DNA from: an uncultured Clostridia bacterium
Lineage (GTDB): Bacteria; Bacillota; Clostridia; TANB77; CAG-508
Assembly (NCBI GenBank): GCA_944391835.1
Contig: CALXVA010000008.1
Span: forward strand, 1-32,749
Reading direction: 5' to 3'
Length of the DNA: 32,749 nucleotides
The notes beneath the pieces were generated by a model. That model was given only the letters and a program-made list of their open reading frames with translations, had not been told where the DNA came from and made no database searches. A program made the translations under genes and the position numbers. The first letter of the stretch is position 1, and every line of letters starts with the position of its first letter. Of the stretch, positions 2,871 through 7,634 are shown piece after piece.

Positions 2871-3299
2871 CTATTTCTCAATTTTTTCAATAGTCAATTT
2901 TCTATAACTTACATCGTCATCACTTTTACTAAAAGAAATTTTGGTATATGGTTTAGGCAAAATATCTTCTATTAATTCGCCCCATTCAATAAGGCAAATT
3001 CCTTTAGAAAAATATTCTTCCCCACCAATAGCAAAAAATTCATCAGAATCTTCTAATCTATATACATCAAAATGATAGATGTTAACTGTATCTGAATTAT
3101 ATTCATTTACTATAGTAAATGTGGGACTAGATATTTCATCTTGCAAATTAAAATTTTCTAGAATGCCTTGAACAAATTTTGTTTTACCAGAACCAAGCTC
3201 ACCAGAAAGTACAATAATGTCTCCAGCTTTTAGGTTTTGGGCATAATTTTTAGCAAAATCTATTGTATCTTGTTCACTTTTTGAAATATATGTACTCAT
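2871..3299 (-). CDS. tsaE: tRNA t6A37 synthesis ATPase TsaE
   Basis: The 142-residue protein is the normal length for TsaE (YjeE), the small P-loop ATPase that regulates or resets the TsaB-TsaD complex during threonylcarbamoyl transfer to A37 of tRNA. Walker A is GELGSGKT at 33-40. The family motif SPTFTIVNEY follows, and the LIEWGE segment provides the Walker B-like region. It is first in a minus-strand run with tsaB-rimI, matching the usual tsaE-tsaB-rimI order of Bacillota. The start at 3299 is preceded by AAAGGAAAGG and by a strong promoter. Confidence 0.96.
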   Translation of the reverse strand: MSTYISKSEQDTIDFAKNYAQNLKAGDIIVLSGELGSGKTKFVQGILENFNLQDEISSPTFTIVNEYNSDTVNIYHFDVYRLEDSDEFFAIGGEEYFSKGICLIEWGELIEDILPKPYTKISFSKSDDDVSYRKLTIEKIEK

Positions 3300-3328
3300 A
3301 TTTTTCCCTTTCCTTTAATATCTACAAT

Positions 3329-3357
3329 ATTGTATATTAAACTACATTTTTTGTAAA
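3329..3357 (-). promoter_or_regulatory. Sigma-A promoter of tsaE operon
   Basis: On the minus strand there is TTTACA (3357-3352), a 17-bp spacer and TACAAT (3334-3329), about 30 bp before the tsaE start. Divergent from the promoter at 3412. Confidence 0.7.
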
Positions 3358-3411
3358 GAAAATACACGAAAAAAACAAAAAAAATTACCCTGAAAAATAC
3401 TAAAGAATAGG

Positions 3412-3440
3412 TTGACTCAAAAAAATAATAATGATATACT
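3412..3440 (+). promoter_or_regulatory. Sigma-A promoter of the surface-protein genes
   Basis: TTGACT at 3412-3417, a 17-bp spacer and TATACT at 3435-3440, about 48 bp upstream of the ATG at 3488, which has its own GAGGAGGAA Shine-Dalgarno sequence. Confidence 0.8.
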
Positions 3441-3487
3441 GTATACGAGAAAATTGTCGATAAAACTAATGAGGAGGAAACAAAAAT

Positions 3488-5311
3488 ATGAACTTTAAAT
3501 TAATAAAATGTATTAACATATTATTAATTATTATATTATTAGCAGGAATATTCATAGCAACGTTTCTAACGAACAAAGCGGAAGCAAAAGAACAAAATAC
3601 AGAAGTATACAAAAAAGGAAGTGACATATTAGACGATTATCCGGGCTATTCTGATTTATTAGATGATTTGTTAGAAGAACATCCAAACTGGACTTTCACA
3701 ATTCTATTTACCGGGCTTGATTGGAATACAGTTATCAGAAATGAGACTACAGTAGAACACGGCAGAAATTTAGTACAGGGAAAAACAGGAGCTTGGATAT
3801 GCTCTGTCTGTGGTGATAAAGCCTATGACAATGGAAGTTGGAGATGTGCTTCAACTGCAACAGTAGAGTACTATATGGATCCAAGAAATTCTTTATATGA
3901 TGAAACATATTTATTTCAATTTGAAAATTTAAAATGGTCTGACAATACATATACAATATCTGGTATAGAGAAAATACTAGATGGATGTGATTATTTATTA
4001 GAAGACAAAATTACATATACAAATACAAAAAATAAAAAAGTAACAATAGATAAAACTTATGCAGAAGTTATAATGGAGGCAGCAGAAGAAGCAGGAATAA
4101 GCCCTTATCATTTAGCATCAAGAATAAGGCAAGAGCAAGGAACGGGAGATAGTGCTTCTGCAACTGCAACAGGTACTTATTCTGGATATACAGGCTACTA
4201 TAACTTTTTAAATGTAAATGCATCTGGAAATGGTTCTTCAACAATTATAAAAAATGCATTAGAATATGCAAAGAAAAAAGGATGGGACACACCTGTAAAA
4301 GCAATAGAGGGTGGAGCAGAATTTCTAGTAAAATCTTATATTCAATATGGGCAAAATACATTATATTTGCAAAAATTTGATGTAGATGACAGTGACGGAG
4401 ATTTATACTGGCATCAATATCAACAAAATGTAGCTGCAGCAAAAACAGAATGTGTGGATATAATGCAGTCATATAAGGAAATAGATGAAAATTTAAATTT
4501 GCCATTCAACTTTGTTATACCAGTATTTGAAAATATGCCAGAAACAAAGTGTGCAATGCCAGGAACCGAATCTATAGTAACACAGAACATAGAAATAACA
4601 GATTCATCTGTGGTTGTGTATAAATCAAAAGATAAATCTTCAACAAAACTTGCTACTTTGAAAAAAGGAGAAAAGGTTTTAAGAATAGAAATTGACAATA
4701 ATAAAACAAATGGATATAAATGGAGCAAGGTTGTATTAAGTAACGGAAAGAAAGGTTATGTTATAACGGAAGGATTTAAAGTTATAGCAGACGTTACAAA
4801 TTGCAACATAGAGGCAGTTGCAATAGAACCAGGTAATGTTAGAAATGGACCTGGAACGTCAGGTACAAATGTACTATTAACATTAACAGAAGGACAGAGA
4901 GTAACAATAATAGAAAAAGGAAAGTATAACAATATAGATGGATATGACTGGTCAAGAATAGTACTTGCAGATGGAACTCAAGGTTATGTAGTTGCCAGAT
5001 ATTTGGAAGAAGTAGATGATTCTGGTTCTACCGATTCAGGAGCAGAAATTGTTGAAGTTGTATGTGATGGTGGATTAACACTAAGAAAAGAACCAGGAAC
5101 AAGCTCAAGTATTTTAGGATATATAGACAAAGGAGAATATTTGACTAGAATAGAAAAAAATTCTGCAAATAAAAATGGATATATATGGGATAAGGTTGTA
5201 ACAGACTCTGGTACTACAGGATATGTTGCAAGAGGCGACGATGATGAAGATTATATACAGGTGGTAAATAGTAGTTCAGGAAATGCTTCAAATGAACGGA
5301 ACAGCAATTGA
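3488..5311 (+). CDS. Secreted glucosaminidase-like cell-wall protein with three SH3b domains
   Basis: The 607-residue protein has a hydrophobic signal segment at about 8-28, with AEA near 31-33 as a possible cleavage site. A domain at about 45-335 has HPNWTFTILFTGLDWNTVI and SRIRQEQGTG followed by TYSGYTGYYNFLNV. This pattern is typical of clostridial endo-beta-N-acetylglucosaminidase-like hydrolases of the lysozyme superfamily, and Glu216 in RQEQG is the likely acid. A CxxC/C cluster (CSVC at 105-108, Cys120) sits in an insert. Three SH3b repeats follow at about 365-430, 437-510 and 518-585. The C terminus ends abruptly in an Asn/Ser-rich tail (ASNERNSN), and a dockerin module continues in another frame. 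A probable frameshift therefore cuts the natural C terminus. Likely role: peptidoglycan hydrolysis outside the membrane. The hydrolase assignment rests on motif reading only. Confidence 0.75.
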   Translation: MNFKLIKCINILLIIILLAGIFIATFLTNKAEAKEQNTEVYKKGSDILDDYPGYSDLLDDLLEEHPNWTFTILFTGLDWNTVIRNETTVEHGRNLVQGKTGAWICSVCGDKAYDNGSWRCASTATVEYYMDPRNSLYDETYLFQFENLKWSDNTYTISGIEKILDGCDYLLEDKITYTNTKNKKVTIDKTYAEVIMEAAEEAGISPYHLASRIRQEQGTGDSASATATGTYSGYTGYYNFLNVNASGNGSSTIIKNALEYAKKKGWDTPVKAIEGGAEFLVKSYIQYGQNTLYLQKFDVDDSDGDLYWHQYQQNVAAAKTECVDIMQSYKEIDENLNLPFNFVIPVFENMPETKCAMPGTESIVTQNIEITDSSVVVYKSKDKSSTKLATLKKGEKVLRIEIDNNKTNGYKWSKVVLSNGKKGYVITEGFKVIADVTNCNIEAVAIEPGNVRNGPGTSGTNVLLTLTEGQRVTIIEKGKYNNIDGYDWSRIVLADGTQGYVVARYLEEVDDSGSTDSGAEIVEVVCDGGLTLRKEPGTSSSILGYIDKGEYLTRIEKNSANKNGYIWDKVVTDSGTTGYVARGDDDEDYIQVVNSSSGNASNERNSN

Positions 5312-5675
5312 AATTAAAAAATCGAATTTAATATGTGAGCCTGGTACAGGAGTTAGTAATGTTTTAGAGCAACTATCAGACGTTGTTGTTAGAGATTCTA
5401 ATGGAAAAAAAGTGACTACGGGTAGTATTGGAACAGGATACACAATAGAATATGAAGGAAAAAAATATACTGTAGTAAAAATGGGTGATGTAAATGGAGA
5501 TGGAAAGGTAAATACTACAGATGCATTAAATGCTTTAAGATATGATGTTGATATAGTATCACTAAATAAATATGAAGTTACAGCTTTAGATTTAAATAGA
5601 GACGGAAAAAGTGATACACTTGATGCTCGTATACTATTAAAATATGATGTTGGATTAGAAAATATAGAAATTTAA
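5268..5675 (+). pseudogene. Dockerin type I tail, out of frame with upstream gene
   Basis: This frame is open from 5268; the first ATG is at 5283 and another at 5292. It encodes up to 130 residues after the ATG. A short beta-rich segment (VSNVLEQLSDVVVRDSNGK, YTIEYEGKKYTVVKMG) leads into two dockerin calcium loops: DVNGDGKVNTTDALNALRYD and DLNRDGKSDTLDARILLKYD. It overlaps the end of the SH3b protein by 29-44 bp in a different frame and has no signal peptide. Alone it would stay in the cytoplasm, where a dockerin makes little sense. The simplest reading is one ancestral secreted protein (hydrolase, SH3b, dockerin) broken by a single-base indel between 5268 and 5311. Alternatives are a programmed shift, a sequencing error, or translational reinitiation at 5283/5292 (a weak CAGGA lies upstream). 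Confidence 0.75.
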
Positions 5676-5689
5676 CATAGGAGGAAAAA

Positions 5690-7405
5690 ATGTTTAAAGT
5701 AAAGAAAGTAATTATATTTGCAATAATATTTTTAGCAATATTGATTATACCAAATATTGCTGAAGCAAGAGTAGTAACTAATGATCCTACAGTTTCATCT
5801 GGTGAAAAGGTAAATATTACGGTAACAACTACAAATCCTGTTTCATCTTTTAAAATAGAAATATTAGATAAAGGAGGATTAATATTTGATTCTGTTAGTG
5901 GAAATGAAATTTTTTTAAGTGAAAATAATCCTTATACTGGCACTGTAAATGGTATTAGTACAAATAAAACGAGTACGACACTAGCAACATATACTTTTAC
6001 AGCACCAGAAGTAAATAGTACTAAGGAATTTGTAGTTAAATTTTCTGTTACGGGTATGGATAATGAAAGTGATACTACTAACACTTCAACTGTAACAGTA
6101 AAACCTAAAGAAACATCATCTGGTGGAGATTCAGAAGGAAATAATAATAGTGGAGGAAACTCTAGTAAACCATCAGATACTGAAGAAGAAGCACCTAGTA
6201 TTAGCTTTTCATCAAGAAATGAAACTGTATATGCTACAAGTAGTGTAAATGTTAGATCAAGTTGTAGTACTAGCAGTAATAAGAATATAATAGGTTCATT
6301 AGATATAGGTGATAGTGTAACTAGAACTGGTATAGGCTCTGGATGGAGTAGAATTACATATAATGGCCAAACAGCTTATGTAAGTAGTGATTACCTTGAC
6401 ACAAAGAATCCAATTGATACAGAAAAAGAGCAAGAGCCGGAGGAAGAGGAAGAAAAAGAAAATGAAGAAGAAAAATCTAATGTAAAAACACTAAAATCTT
6501 TAACCGTTGAACGATTTACATTAGAGCCAGAATTTGATCCAAATATAACAGAATACAGTTTAACAGTAGGTGCTGATGTAGAAAAATTAGATATTGGAGT
6601 TATAGCAGAAGATCCAAAATCAACTGTAGAAATTGTCGGAAATAATGAGCTTCTAATTGGAGAAAACACAGTAAATGTAAAAGTAACAGCAGAAGATGGT
6701 ACAGTAAGAACATATACAATAAATGTAACAAAAGTAGCTGATGTTGGAGTAAAATTATCAGAGTTAAGTATAGAAAGTTATACGTTATCTCCTGAATTTA
6801 GTAGTGATGTATTTGAATACACATTAAATATAACAGATACAAGCATAACAAATCTTGCTATAAATGCAAAATCAGATGAAGAAAATGTTGATATTGAAAT
6901 TGTTGGAAATAATGAGTTAAAACTAGGAAAAAATATTATAACAATACTTGTTACATCAAAAAACGATAATTTAACGACAACATATCAAATTGTTGTTAAT
7001 ATAGAAGAAACACAACCCGAAAACAATCAAATTATAGCTGGAATTGATAATAATGATTTGTTTATGTATATAGGAATTGGAGTAGTAGTTCTAGTAATAC
7101 TTATAATTATTATAGTTGTTATTGTTAGAAAACGTAGAAATGCAAAAGAAACTGATGATTACGATGATGAGGAAGATTTTGCACCATTAAATACATATAG
7201 TTTAGAAAATATTTCTAATGATGAGAAATCTGAAAAGTTAGAAAATACAGATTTAAATAGTAACAAAGATACAACTATAACGGATAATGCAGAACAAGAT
7301 AATGAAAATAAAAGAAAAGAGAAATTAGATGAATTTAGTAGTTATGCTTCTTCAAGTGATTCTGATGCAAATACAACAACGCGTAAAAGAGGAAAACATT
7401 TTTAA
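5690..7405 (+). CDS. Membrane-anchored surface protein: cohesin-like, SH3b, two cadherin-like domains
   Basis: The 571-residue type I membrane protein has a signal peptide at 1-26 ending AEA. A beta-sandwich module at about 27-140 begins VVTNDPTVSSGEKVNITV and ends VVKFSVTG; its outline resembles cohesin or Ig-like modules, but the family is uncertain. Then come a Gly/Ser/Asn linker, an SH3b domain (about 176-236), a Glu-rich linker, two cadherin-like beta-sandwich repeats (about 268-348 and 355-438, each with a VEIVGNNEL-type strand), a transmembrane helix at 458-479 followed by RKRR, and a 90-residue acidic cytoplasmic tail. There is no LPxTG-like sorting signal, so anchoring is by the membrane helix. 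It starts 14 bp after the dockerin frame with TAGGAGGAAAAA, so the two are cotranscribed. Inferred role: surface anchor or receptor, perhaps for the dockerin of its neighbour. Confidence 0.7.
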   Translation: MFKVKKVIIFAIIFLAILIIPNIAEARVVTNDPTVSSGEKVNITVTTTNPVSSFKIEILDKGGLIFDSVSGNEIFLSENNPYTGTVNGISTNKTSTTLATYTFTAPEVNSTKEFVVKFSVTGMDNESDTTNTSTVTVKPKETSSGGDSEGNNNSGGNSSKPSDTEEEAPSISFSSRNETVYATSSVNVRSSCSTSSNKNIIGSLDIGDSVTRTGIGSGWSRITYNGQTAYVSSDYLDTKNPIDTEKEQEPEEEEEKENEEEKSNVKTLKSLTVERFTLEPEFDPNITEYSLTVGADVEKLDIGVIAEDPKSTVEIVGNNELLIGENTVNVKVTAEDGTVRTYTINVTKVADVGVKLSELSIESYTLSPEFSSDVFEYTLNITDTSITNLAINAKSDEENVDIEIVGNNELKLGKNIITILVTSKNDNLTTTYQIVVNIEETQPENNQIIAGIDNNDLFMYIGIGVVVLVILIIIIVVIVRKRRNAKETDDYDDEEDFAPLNTYSLENISNDEKSEKLENTDLNSNKDTTITDNAEQDNENKRKEKLDEFSSYASSSDSDANTTTRKRGKHF

Positions 7406-7410
7406 TTATA

Positions 7411-7440
7411 TTTACAAAAACAAATGTAATATGATATAAT
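7411..7440 (+). promoter_or_regulatory. Promoter of tRNA-Thr
   Basis: TTTACA at 7411-7416, an 18-bp spacer, and TATAAT at 7435-7440 with extended TGa. A 15-bp hairpin (7442-7481) lies between it and the tRNA. Confidence 0.65.
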
Positions 7441-7441
7441 T

Positions 7442-7481
7442 CAAAGGCAAAAAGTAGTGTAAAAAATACTTTTTGTCTTTG
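7442..7481 (+). other. Stem-loop in tRNA-Thr leader
   Basis: CAAAGGCAAAAAGTA pairs with TACTTTTTGTCTTTG, with one G-T wobble and a 10-nt loop. No T-run follows, so it is not a clear terminator. It probably forms in the 5' leader of the tRNA transcript, or it marks the end of the surface-protein mRNA. Confidence 0.5.
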
Positions 7482-7494
7482 AAATTTAATATAT

Positions 7495-7570
7495 GCCAAT
7501 ATAGCTCAGTTGGTAGAGCAACGGATTCGTAACCCGTAGGTCAGCAGTTCGATTCTGCTTATTGGCTCCA
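7495..7570 (+). tRNA. tRNA-Thr(CGT)
   Basis: A 76-nt cloverleaf with acceptor GCCAATA/TATTGGC, perfect pairing, and an encoded CCA end. The anticodon loop TTCGTAA gives CGT, reading ACG. The anticodon stem ACGGA/CCCGT has one A-C mismatch next to the loop. The T-arm is AGCAG-TTCGATT-CTGCT. Confidence 0.93.
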
Positions 7571-7575
7571 AAAAA

Positions 7576-7634
7576 TACTCCATTGAAATTCAAATATTAT
7601 TTAAAAATTAATATTTTAGAGCTTTATGAGAGTA
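7576..7634 (+). repeat. 59-nt hairpin element, copy 1
   Basis: An imperfect inverted repeat from TACTCCATTGAAATTC to GAGCTTTATGAGAGTA just downstream of the tRNA-Thr CCA end. It is related in sequence, exact length and flanking GGCTCCAAAA to the hairpin at 8733-8791. There is no T-run after it. Confidence 0.55.

Follow-up and report, generated by a model that had tools for sequence, protein, structure and literature searches.

A peptidoglycan hydrolase and its membrane-anchored neighbour as a candidate cohesin-dockerin pair in uncultured gut Clostridia

The window (the whole stretch of DNA analysed, 32,749 nucleotides from an uncultured Clostridia bacterium) encodes a wall hydrolase, a dockerin in the +1 frame and a membrane protein, all on the forward strand, as the initial annotation had described them. 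Does the membrane protein hold the hydrolase at the cell surface by binding its dockerin, as proposed there from the tentatively cohesin-like N-terminal module of the former? The features of the locus are as follows.

3488..5311, +, gene of a secreted SagB-like/GH73-type glucosaminidase with three SH3b domains (ORF, SH3_3 x3, SagB matches)
3608..4522, +, glucosaminidase (SagB/GH73-type) domain (NCBIfam SagB, PDB SagB/AtlA glucosaminidase)
5268..5308, +, overlap of the hydrolase and dockerin frames (frame break), in a non-conserved linker; same in the sister genome
5283-5675, +, dockerin-frame ORF, +1 relative to the hydrolase frame
5301..5474, +, X-like module ahead of the dockerin, in the dockerin frame (alignment of relatives)
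5484..5645, +, type I-like dockerin of class AB (DALNAL..DARILL), two calcium-loop repeats (Pfam, alignment)
5690..7405, +, gene of the membrane-anchored partner (ORF of 571 aa; conserved neighbour)
5690..5767, +, signal peptide of the partner (hydrophobic N-terminus ending ..AEA)
5762..6115, +, N-terminal module of class AB, predicted cohesin fold and putative dockerin receptor (AlphaFold2, VIA-align, Foldseek)
6239..6400, +, SH3b domain of the partner (Pfam SH3_3, E 1.3e-8)
6491..7009, +, two cadherin-like beta-sandwich repeats (Pfam Cadherin-like, E 1.2e-14)
7064..7141, +, transmembrane helix (hydrophobic run in the translation)
7142..7402, +, acid-rich cytoplasmic tail with the conserved end [KR]G[KR]H[FS] (alignment of relatives)

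The two genes and the frame break

The hydrolase ORF (607 aa) stops soon after the third SH3b domain, owing to a frame break. Its product matches SH3_3 three times (Pfam, E 1.9e-22), the NCBIfam SagB model (E 7e-20, but under the model's own cut-off of 425 bits) and, in a PDB sequence search, SagB (6fxp/6u0o, E ~1e-14) as well as the AtlA glucosaminidase; the putative catalytic Glu is invariant in an alignment of relatives (72/72). The SagB/GH73 domain and the conserved Glu predict a SagB-like peptidoglycan glucosaminidase. The second ORF contains Dockerin_1 (PF00404; E 1.8e-9, 38-39 bits against a cut-off of 22.9), which, with its two calcium-loop-helix repeats, classifies the domain as type I. 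Loop Asp 12 is invariant across all relatives of classes AB, C and D (see below). The partner is composed of the N-terminal module, an SH3b domain, two cadherin-like domains, a single transmembrane helix and a tail of about 87 residues, which is acid-rich, basic at both ends and terminates in RKRGKHF; the SH3b domains of both proteins, the cadherin-like repeats and the acidic tail had all been correctly recognised at the outset. Between the dockerin ORF and the partner gene lie 14 nt, which include a GGAGG ribosome site, and this gap is the one feature that suggests cotranscription of hydrolase and partner. A scan of positions 3250-7620 found no terminator-like sites there, and fewer promoter-like sites than in shuffles.

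The frame break is real as sequenced, since a second MAG, the sister genome G039, carries the identical hydrolase/dockerin break, and an assembly error was judged unlikely for the same reason. The initial annotation had spoken of a hydrolase that bears a dockerin once rejoined: the dockerin is genuine and intact relatives exist, but in the window genome it lies out of frame. As the break parts the hydrolase from the dockerin, the tether has probably been lost or much reduced in this genome and its sister. For the window genome only, we lean slightly towards a decaying pair, in which the hydrolase, deprived of its dockerin, now depends on its SH3b domains alone. The identical break in two genomes, a dockerin ORF devoid of its own signal peptide, and a linker that is not conserved and shows no known frameshift motif all fit such decay. 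On the other side, dockerin frame and receptor module alike are intact and open and retain their recognition and calcium residues, and the segment is near-identical in the two genomes, which leaves a selection test without power. A programmed +1 frameshift yielding hydrolase with and without dockerin is highly improbable: the break is common to two genomes, both frames remain open and the zero-frame overlap contains a CGG codon (1 occurrence in 5163 codons counted), but this codon is merely a by-product of the shifted frame, no slippery motif was seen at the break, and all the class-AB relatives examined (e.g. L147, very alike just upstream of the break) have an uninterrupted hydrolase-dockerin frame.

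Conservation of the pair and fold of the N-terminal module

The gene pair is kept in relatives, as had been asked of it. In the window's family, a dockerin ORF lies directly upstream of 82 of the 85 full-size partner genes (at least 380 aa), at a median gap of 19 nt. This family-wide recurrence is beyond chance. The pair is also present in other families of the same class, where canonical Pfam cohesins fill the partner slot beside hydrolase-dockerin genes. In five f46 loci the hydrolase is without a C-terminal dockerin, yet the partner has a cohesin-like module.

The cohesin assignment has gained considerably from structure prediction, which did not give the unrelated fold that would have spoken against it. 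The AlphaFold2 model of partner residues 25-142 (pLDDT 86.9, pTM 0.82) retrieved only cohesins at ranks 1-27 in VIA-align (Z 11.3-10.2, the first non-cohesin at 9.9; rmsd 2.3-3.1 over 110-117 of 118 residues), the top three Foldseek matches were cohesins, and cohesins made up 9 of the 10 best matches for the module of one relative. Pfam PF00963 did not match the window module and was matched weakly by 5 of 19 class-AB modules (best E 0.02); ubiquitin and ABL matches in the PDB sequence search were put down to chance. The class-AB module of the window is thus a predicted cohesin by fold, outside Pfam membership by sequence. Class E partners (contig C32 type) are recognised by cohesin profiles: 11 of 17 match PF00963 (best 1.5e-8), and all 12 PDB sequence matches are cohesin-bearing entries. 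The modules of classes C and D gave only generic Ig-like matches in sequence searches and are not recognisable as cohesins by sequence; profile-profile comparison gave them 96-98% probability of similarity to class AB. When dockerin and module of L149 were co-folded as a single read-through chain (pTM 0.57), both modules were well predicted, but not their mutual orientation.

Matched classes and their joint exchange

Dockerins and N-terminal modules fall into discrete matched classes, AB, C and D, with E in a second, paralogous pair, which in the window genome is intact and lies on contig C32. Blind clustering of the dockerins agreed with that of the modules (ARI 0.77, shuffle maximum 0.08). 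Agreement was seen at k=6-8 but not at k=4, because two outlier groups occupied clusters there. The partial Mantel correlation was 0.55 (0/5000) when the hydrolase and the rest of the partner were controlled for. Comparisons between hydrolases at least 60% identical gave 128 with both classes the same, 87 with both different, and 1+1 mismatched. For held-out loci, the class matched in 25 of 33 overall, and in 20/20 when the module resembled a known class. Class is nearly independent of enzyme phylogeny: mapped on the enzyme tree, there were 24 dockerin switches, 24 module switches and 24 joint ones (shuffled minimum 32). Relatedness was rejected as the source of the matching, class being untied to the hydrolase tree (P 0.23).

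As the two modules adjoin in the DNA, linkage explains part of the correlation. It is unlikely, in our judgement, to be the whole explanation, that is, that adjacent modules merely recombine jointly without binding each other. The exchanged segment is indeed contiguous and holds both modules. Against linkage alone speak the complete concordance under a one-residue class rule (58/58 loci, no mismatched pair) in spite of 24 switches, and the focusing of class information at the cohesin-contacting positions of both dockerin repeats, away from the calcium ligands, rather than over the other variable columns (MWU p 0.001). The class-specific positions overlap the dockerin recognition positions 10/11, 17/18 and 22. 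Positions 11 and 12 are recognition positions in the literature (PMC5141474, PMC5301203). The signal peptide between the two modules is uncorrelated with class (r 0.10 vs 0.74), though it is short and fast-evolving. Dockerin and cohesin folds are also known partners, and other families have pairs in which the cohesin is a Pfam one. The matched classes, which extend far past the original proposal, argue for the two modules being partners.

It is very unlikely that the dockerin serves a different cohesin and the N-terminal module binds something else. The window genome does contain a further, LPXTG-anchored Pfam cohesin adjoining a sortase on contig C32, and its contig C66 encodes four further dockerin proteins, but this would leave unexplained why the dockerin class tracks that of the adjoining module, and the C66 dockerins, of their own nearly identical type, are presumably better candidates for the LPXTG cohesin than the hydrolase dockerin. 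A cellulosome, with its tandem-cohesin scaffoldin and several dockerin enzymes for plant polysaccharide, was also rejected, as the genome, perhaps incomplete as a MAG, has one Pfam cohesin beyond the two pairs and no tandem array.

The exchange can be read directly in L055 and L061, near-identical loci whose sole difference is a cassette of about 600 bp covering both halves: nucleotide identity is 98.8% up to the dockerin, none through dockerin, start and N-terminal module, and then 98.1%. Because the dockerin-coding 3' end of gene 1 adjoins the 5' end of gene 2, which encodes the receptor module, one exchange replaces both halves and preserves their match. Taken with the 24 joint switches, lock and key appear to have changed in concert on at least two dozen occasions. 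One might speculate, although we consider this more doubtful than not, that the modules of classes C and D represent dockerin receptors beyond the known cohesin types and that diversifying selection acts on the locus as a polymorphic specificity cassette, driven by escape from phage or bacteriocins that exploit the exposed receptor, or by privacy against capturing neighbours' hydrolases. Wall remodelling in each strain would then follow an orthogonal dockerin code private to that strain.

A probable private tether and known systems

The architecture and adjacency of the two genes, the cohesin fold of class AB and the matched classes make it probable that hydrolase and partner form a private cohesin-dockerin tether, SagB-SpdC-like in function and diversified by cassette exchange. 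A SagB-like glucosaminidase would be secreted bearing a C-terminal dockerin, and the outermost module of the single-pass partner would be its cohesin-type receptor, the physical binding being presumably calcium-dependent. The receptor would keep the hydrolase near the membrane while the SH3b domains of both partners hold the wall, and glycan strands would be cut close to their site of synthesis, as by SagB-SpdC in Staphylococcus aureus. That the cytoplasmic tail might also signal inward, as the initial annotation suggested, we treat as speculation.

SagB-SpdC is the peptidoglycan release complex of that species, in which the integral membrane protein SpdC belongs to the CAAX-protease family (PMC12272431). 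Common to both systems are a GH73-type glucosaminidase, here with a domain matching SagB, and a dedicated membrane partner, which in our case is putative; cohesin and dockerin are absent from SagB-SpdC, and we rejected the partner as an SpdC/CAAX-protease-family protein, since what it carries instead are SH3b and cadherin-like domains with a single transmembrane helix. The Limousia mucinolysome, a multi-enzyme mucin-degrading complex with tandem cohesins, shares with our pairs the use of cohesin and dockerin on a substrate other than cellulose in gut Firmicutes, with a cohesin anchored to the cell wall; the parts of that report available to us describe no peptidoglycan hydrolase-partner pair or class switching (PMC12997984). 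A literature search, which covered few subscription journals, found no paper on the hydrolase-partner pair or its class switching.

With the type I cohesin-dockerin systems of cellulosomes (Clostridium, Ruminococcus), the pairs have in common (i) a dockerin with two calcium-loop repeats, (ii) receptor modules that are cohesin-like by fold or sequence in classes AB and E, and (iii) class-specific positions that overlap recognition positions. Here, in contrast, each partner has one cohesin without a scaffoldin array, the genes are adjacent, the predicted enzyme cuts peptidoglycan, the partner is a transmembrane protein and the class switches as a cassette. The non-cellulosomal cohesins of Clostridium perfringens GH84/GH33 and Archaeoglobus (2xdh), among the best fold matches to the window module, likewise act outside cellulosomes, pairwise and not in scaffold assembly. 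In C. perfringens the cohesin is carried on a glycan-degrading enzyme, whereas here it caps a membrane-anchored, non-enzymatic protein. Cohesin-dockerin binding, familiar mainly from plant-fibre breakdown, would extend to the peptidoglycan metabolism of many uncultured gut Clostridia, which offer a natural set running to dozens of dockerin-receptor pairs, matched and apparently orthogonal, whose specificity positions are already mapped. How specificity is coded, and how it changes without loss of the partner, becomes directly testable with these pairs, which could also serve as orthogonal scaffolds.

The gene pair and its conservation

The window comes from a 1.69-Mb MAG, and its named relatives are uncultured Clostridia, with the gut of rabbit, chicken and roe deer among their sources. 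ORF calling in the window recovered the three ORFs claimed by the initial annotation, all at the positions it had given:

3488-5311, forward strand: secreted glucosaminidase with a SagB/AtlA-type domain and three SH3b domains (NCBIfam, PDB, Pfam)
5283-5675, forward strand, +1 frame: X-like module and Dockerin_1 domain (Pfam; Dockerin_1 E 1.8e-9)
5690-7405, forward strand: membrane-anchored partner with signal peptide, N-terminal module (N-module), SH3b, two cadherin-like repeats, one transmembrane helix and acid-rich tail (Pfam and sequence)

The hydrolase matches the NCBIfam SagB model at E 7e-20, yet below the model's own cut-off, and PDB entries 6fxp and 6u0o at E about 1e-14. A conserved basic motif, [KR]G[KR]H[FS], closes the partner's cytoplasmic tail (window 7367-7402 and many relatives), and this conserved end suggests a contact inside the cell. 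Upstream, judged from translation alone, positions 1470-2816 resemble TsaB fused to a RimI-type acetyltransferase and adjoin a TsaE-like gene (2871-3299).

The expectation that both genes would occur together in relatives was borne out. Among membrane-type genes encoding at least 380 aa, 82 of 85 have a dockerin ORF directly upstream, at a median gap of 19 nt (85 of all 103 genes fetched; shorter proteins lacking the N-module represent another type of gene). The membrane protein has a relative in 137 of the 145 genomes of the family, the genomes compared being mostly MAGs. Contig C32 of the window's own genome carries a second pair, which is intact: GH73-SH3b-Big2-X-dockerin followed by cohesin-cadherin-like-TM. 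The pair was also found in a second family of the order, and in further families of the class partners adjoin hydrolase-dockerin genes; 4 of the 9 outgroup partners scanned contain a Pfam cohesin above the curated cut-off. The exception is another family, f46, in which the hydrolase of five loci (L220, L225, L229, L230, L231) ends at the GH73 domain without a dockerin, while the partner retains a cohesin-like N-module. Two loci, L194 and L195, have class-C-like receptor genes (classes are defined below) with no dockerin gene directly upstream, and are thus solitary receptors.

The N-module and its matched classes

Pfam gave no match for the N-module of the window and weak Cohesin matches in 5 of its 19 relatives; in a PDB sequence search, the sole near full-length and plausible match was a Ruminococcus scaffoldin cohesin (E 0.016). 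An AlphaFold2 model built from 19 natural sequences (pLDDT 86.9, pTM 0.82) retrieved cohesin structures as its first three Foldseek matches. In VIA-align, ranks 1-27 were all cohesins (Z 11.3 to 10.2; rmsd 2.3-3.1 over 110-117 of 118 residues), including non-cellulosomal ones of C. perfringens and Archaeoglobus; the best non-cohesin followed at Z 9.9, a small margin after an unbroken run of 27. For relative L149, whose module was modelled at pLDDT about 97, cohesins made up 9 of the 10 best Foldseek matches (E 1.4e-7). Unrecognised by sequence alone, the window's N-module is by its predicted fold a cohesin, as the initial annotation had tentatively proposed.

Reading hydrolase C-termini and partner N-termini side by side revealed discrete types that go together.

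Matched classes of dockerin and N-module
Class AB: dockerin D[AS]xxxLxxxVG; cohesin-like modules
Class C: dockerin DYVKIKNxIMGK; Big2-like modules
Class D: dockerin D[LMT]LxxxKxLL; WNLKVSG-type modules
Class E: dockerin DLLVLQRHILEI; IAAYTLWIYYE cohesins, second pair only

By hhalign profile comparison, the class C and D modules are related to those of class AB (96-98%); profile and sequence searches could not establish them as cohesins. When the two sides were clustered separately and blind, the adjusted Rand index reached 0.77 with six clusters (best of 2000 shuffles, 0.08). Dockerin and N-module distances correlate at 0.60, and at 0.55 once hydrolase-domain and rest-of-partner distances are removed (0 of 5000 permutations, maximum 0.13). 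A one-residue dockerin rule, the residue after the last calcium-loop Asp, formulated after the alignment was seen, assigns all 58 variable-pair loci as the blind N-module clustering does. Where two loci have hydrolase domains at least 60% identical, both classes are the same in 128 pairs and both are different in 87, with 1 + 1 mixed. On the hydrolase tree the dockerin changes class 24 times, the N-module 24 and the joint state 24 (minimum in 1000 shuffles, 32), and the tie of class to this tree is no better than for shuffled labels (P 0.23). Class E loci form one clade and never switch. The two pairs differ in class in all nine genomes in which both were sampled, and the window's own genus contains classes AB, C and D.

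Outside the discovery set, public genomes were searched using class-AB N-modules as the only queries; each of the 19 loci retrieved, some ten of which were new, has a class-AB dockerin upstream (L156 read by hand). Nearest-neighbour assignment of 33 further loci gave concordant classes in 25, where shuffling gave 10 on average and 20 at most. Among the loci whose N-module resembles a known class, at a threshold chosen after the scores were seen, 20 of 20 were concordant; the other loci represent new types, among which NARDLLMLQRYIL dockerins paired with VGAYDNISVSYD modules stand out.

Exchange, linkage and partnership

Between loci L055 and L061, identity is 98.8% across 2411 bp of hydrolase sequence, as far as the first dockerin residues. 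It then vanishes for ~600 bp, a stretch that comprises dockerin, stop, start, signal peptide and N-module, and returns, at 98.1%, from membrane-protein residue 143 to the end. The same pattern, less sharp, is seen in L045/L084 and L072/L089. Since dockerin and N-module lie directly on either side of the gene boundary, a single exchange replaces the two together.

This very proximity would make both sides travel together, so that correlation alone is no proof of binding. We nevertheless consider it improbable that class matching reflects mere linkage of neighbouring modules without binding. In both repeats of the dockerin, class information is found at loop positions 10, 11, 13, 14, 17, 18, 20 and 21, and not at the calcium ligands; recognition positions known from type I dockerins, for which positions 11 and 12 have been named (PMC5141474, PMC5301203), carry more of it than other variable columns (p 0.001). 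The signal peptide between the modules is hardly class-correlated (r 0.10 versus 0.74), although it is short and drifts quickly; nor is the X module beside the dockerin (r 0.17 versus 0.74), and no mismatched locus was found. Together these observations favour partnership. Folding the dockerin and N-module of L149 as one chain predicted each module well but not their orientation to each other (pTM 0.57). Comparison of the loci argues that the tentative pair of the initial annotation is real, and that it belongs to a larger set of dockerin-receptor cassettes that are matched and can be exchanged.

In the window, the hydrolase frame stops just after the third SH3b and the dockerin runs on in the next frame. 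The break is identical, letter for letter, in the sister genome G039 of the same genus (apparently contig CALXWT010000034.1), and sits in a non-conserved linker across which L147 and similar close relatives read uninterrupted; for these reasons we regard it as a genuine mutation in this lineage rather than an assembly error. The tether of the window's own copy is probably impaired. Over window ~5242-6733 (~1490 bp) the two genomes show two differences only, whereas many third-codon-position differences lie upstream of 5242 and the flanking DNA differs at many synonymous sites; this segment, break included, was thus probably exchanged recently between the two species. In the MAG loci L045, L058 and L073, frame breaks or stops likewise appear to interrupt other hydrolase genes of the family.

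Other cohesin and dockerin genes, and comparison with SagB-SpdC

Just upstream of the class-E pair on C32, beside a sortase-like gene, another protein is encoded that is LPXTG-anchored and bears a Pfam cohesin (L007, 2525-4466); this may provide the cell with a third cohesin. Contig C66 of the same genome encodes four consecutive proteins (L008, 522-8527) with nearly identical dockerins (GLYDAFQILRTVILGDGDL), of a type unlike both pairs; possibly they are clients of the LPXTG-anchored cohesin on C32.

As to why the specificity of the tether is exchanged so frequently, one might guess that it helps to evade phage or bacteriocins that use the exposed module, or keeps the tether private against the secreted hydrolases of neighbours. 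In SagB-SpdC, the enzyme is bound by a membrane protein, and the two as a complex free nascent peptidoglycan from its membrane anchor (PMC12272431). The SagB-like glucosaminidase described here also has a dedicated membrane partner, and by analogy we infer that pairs of the window's type would do the same job, through a different and unrelated tether.
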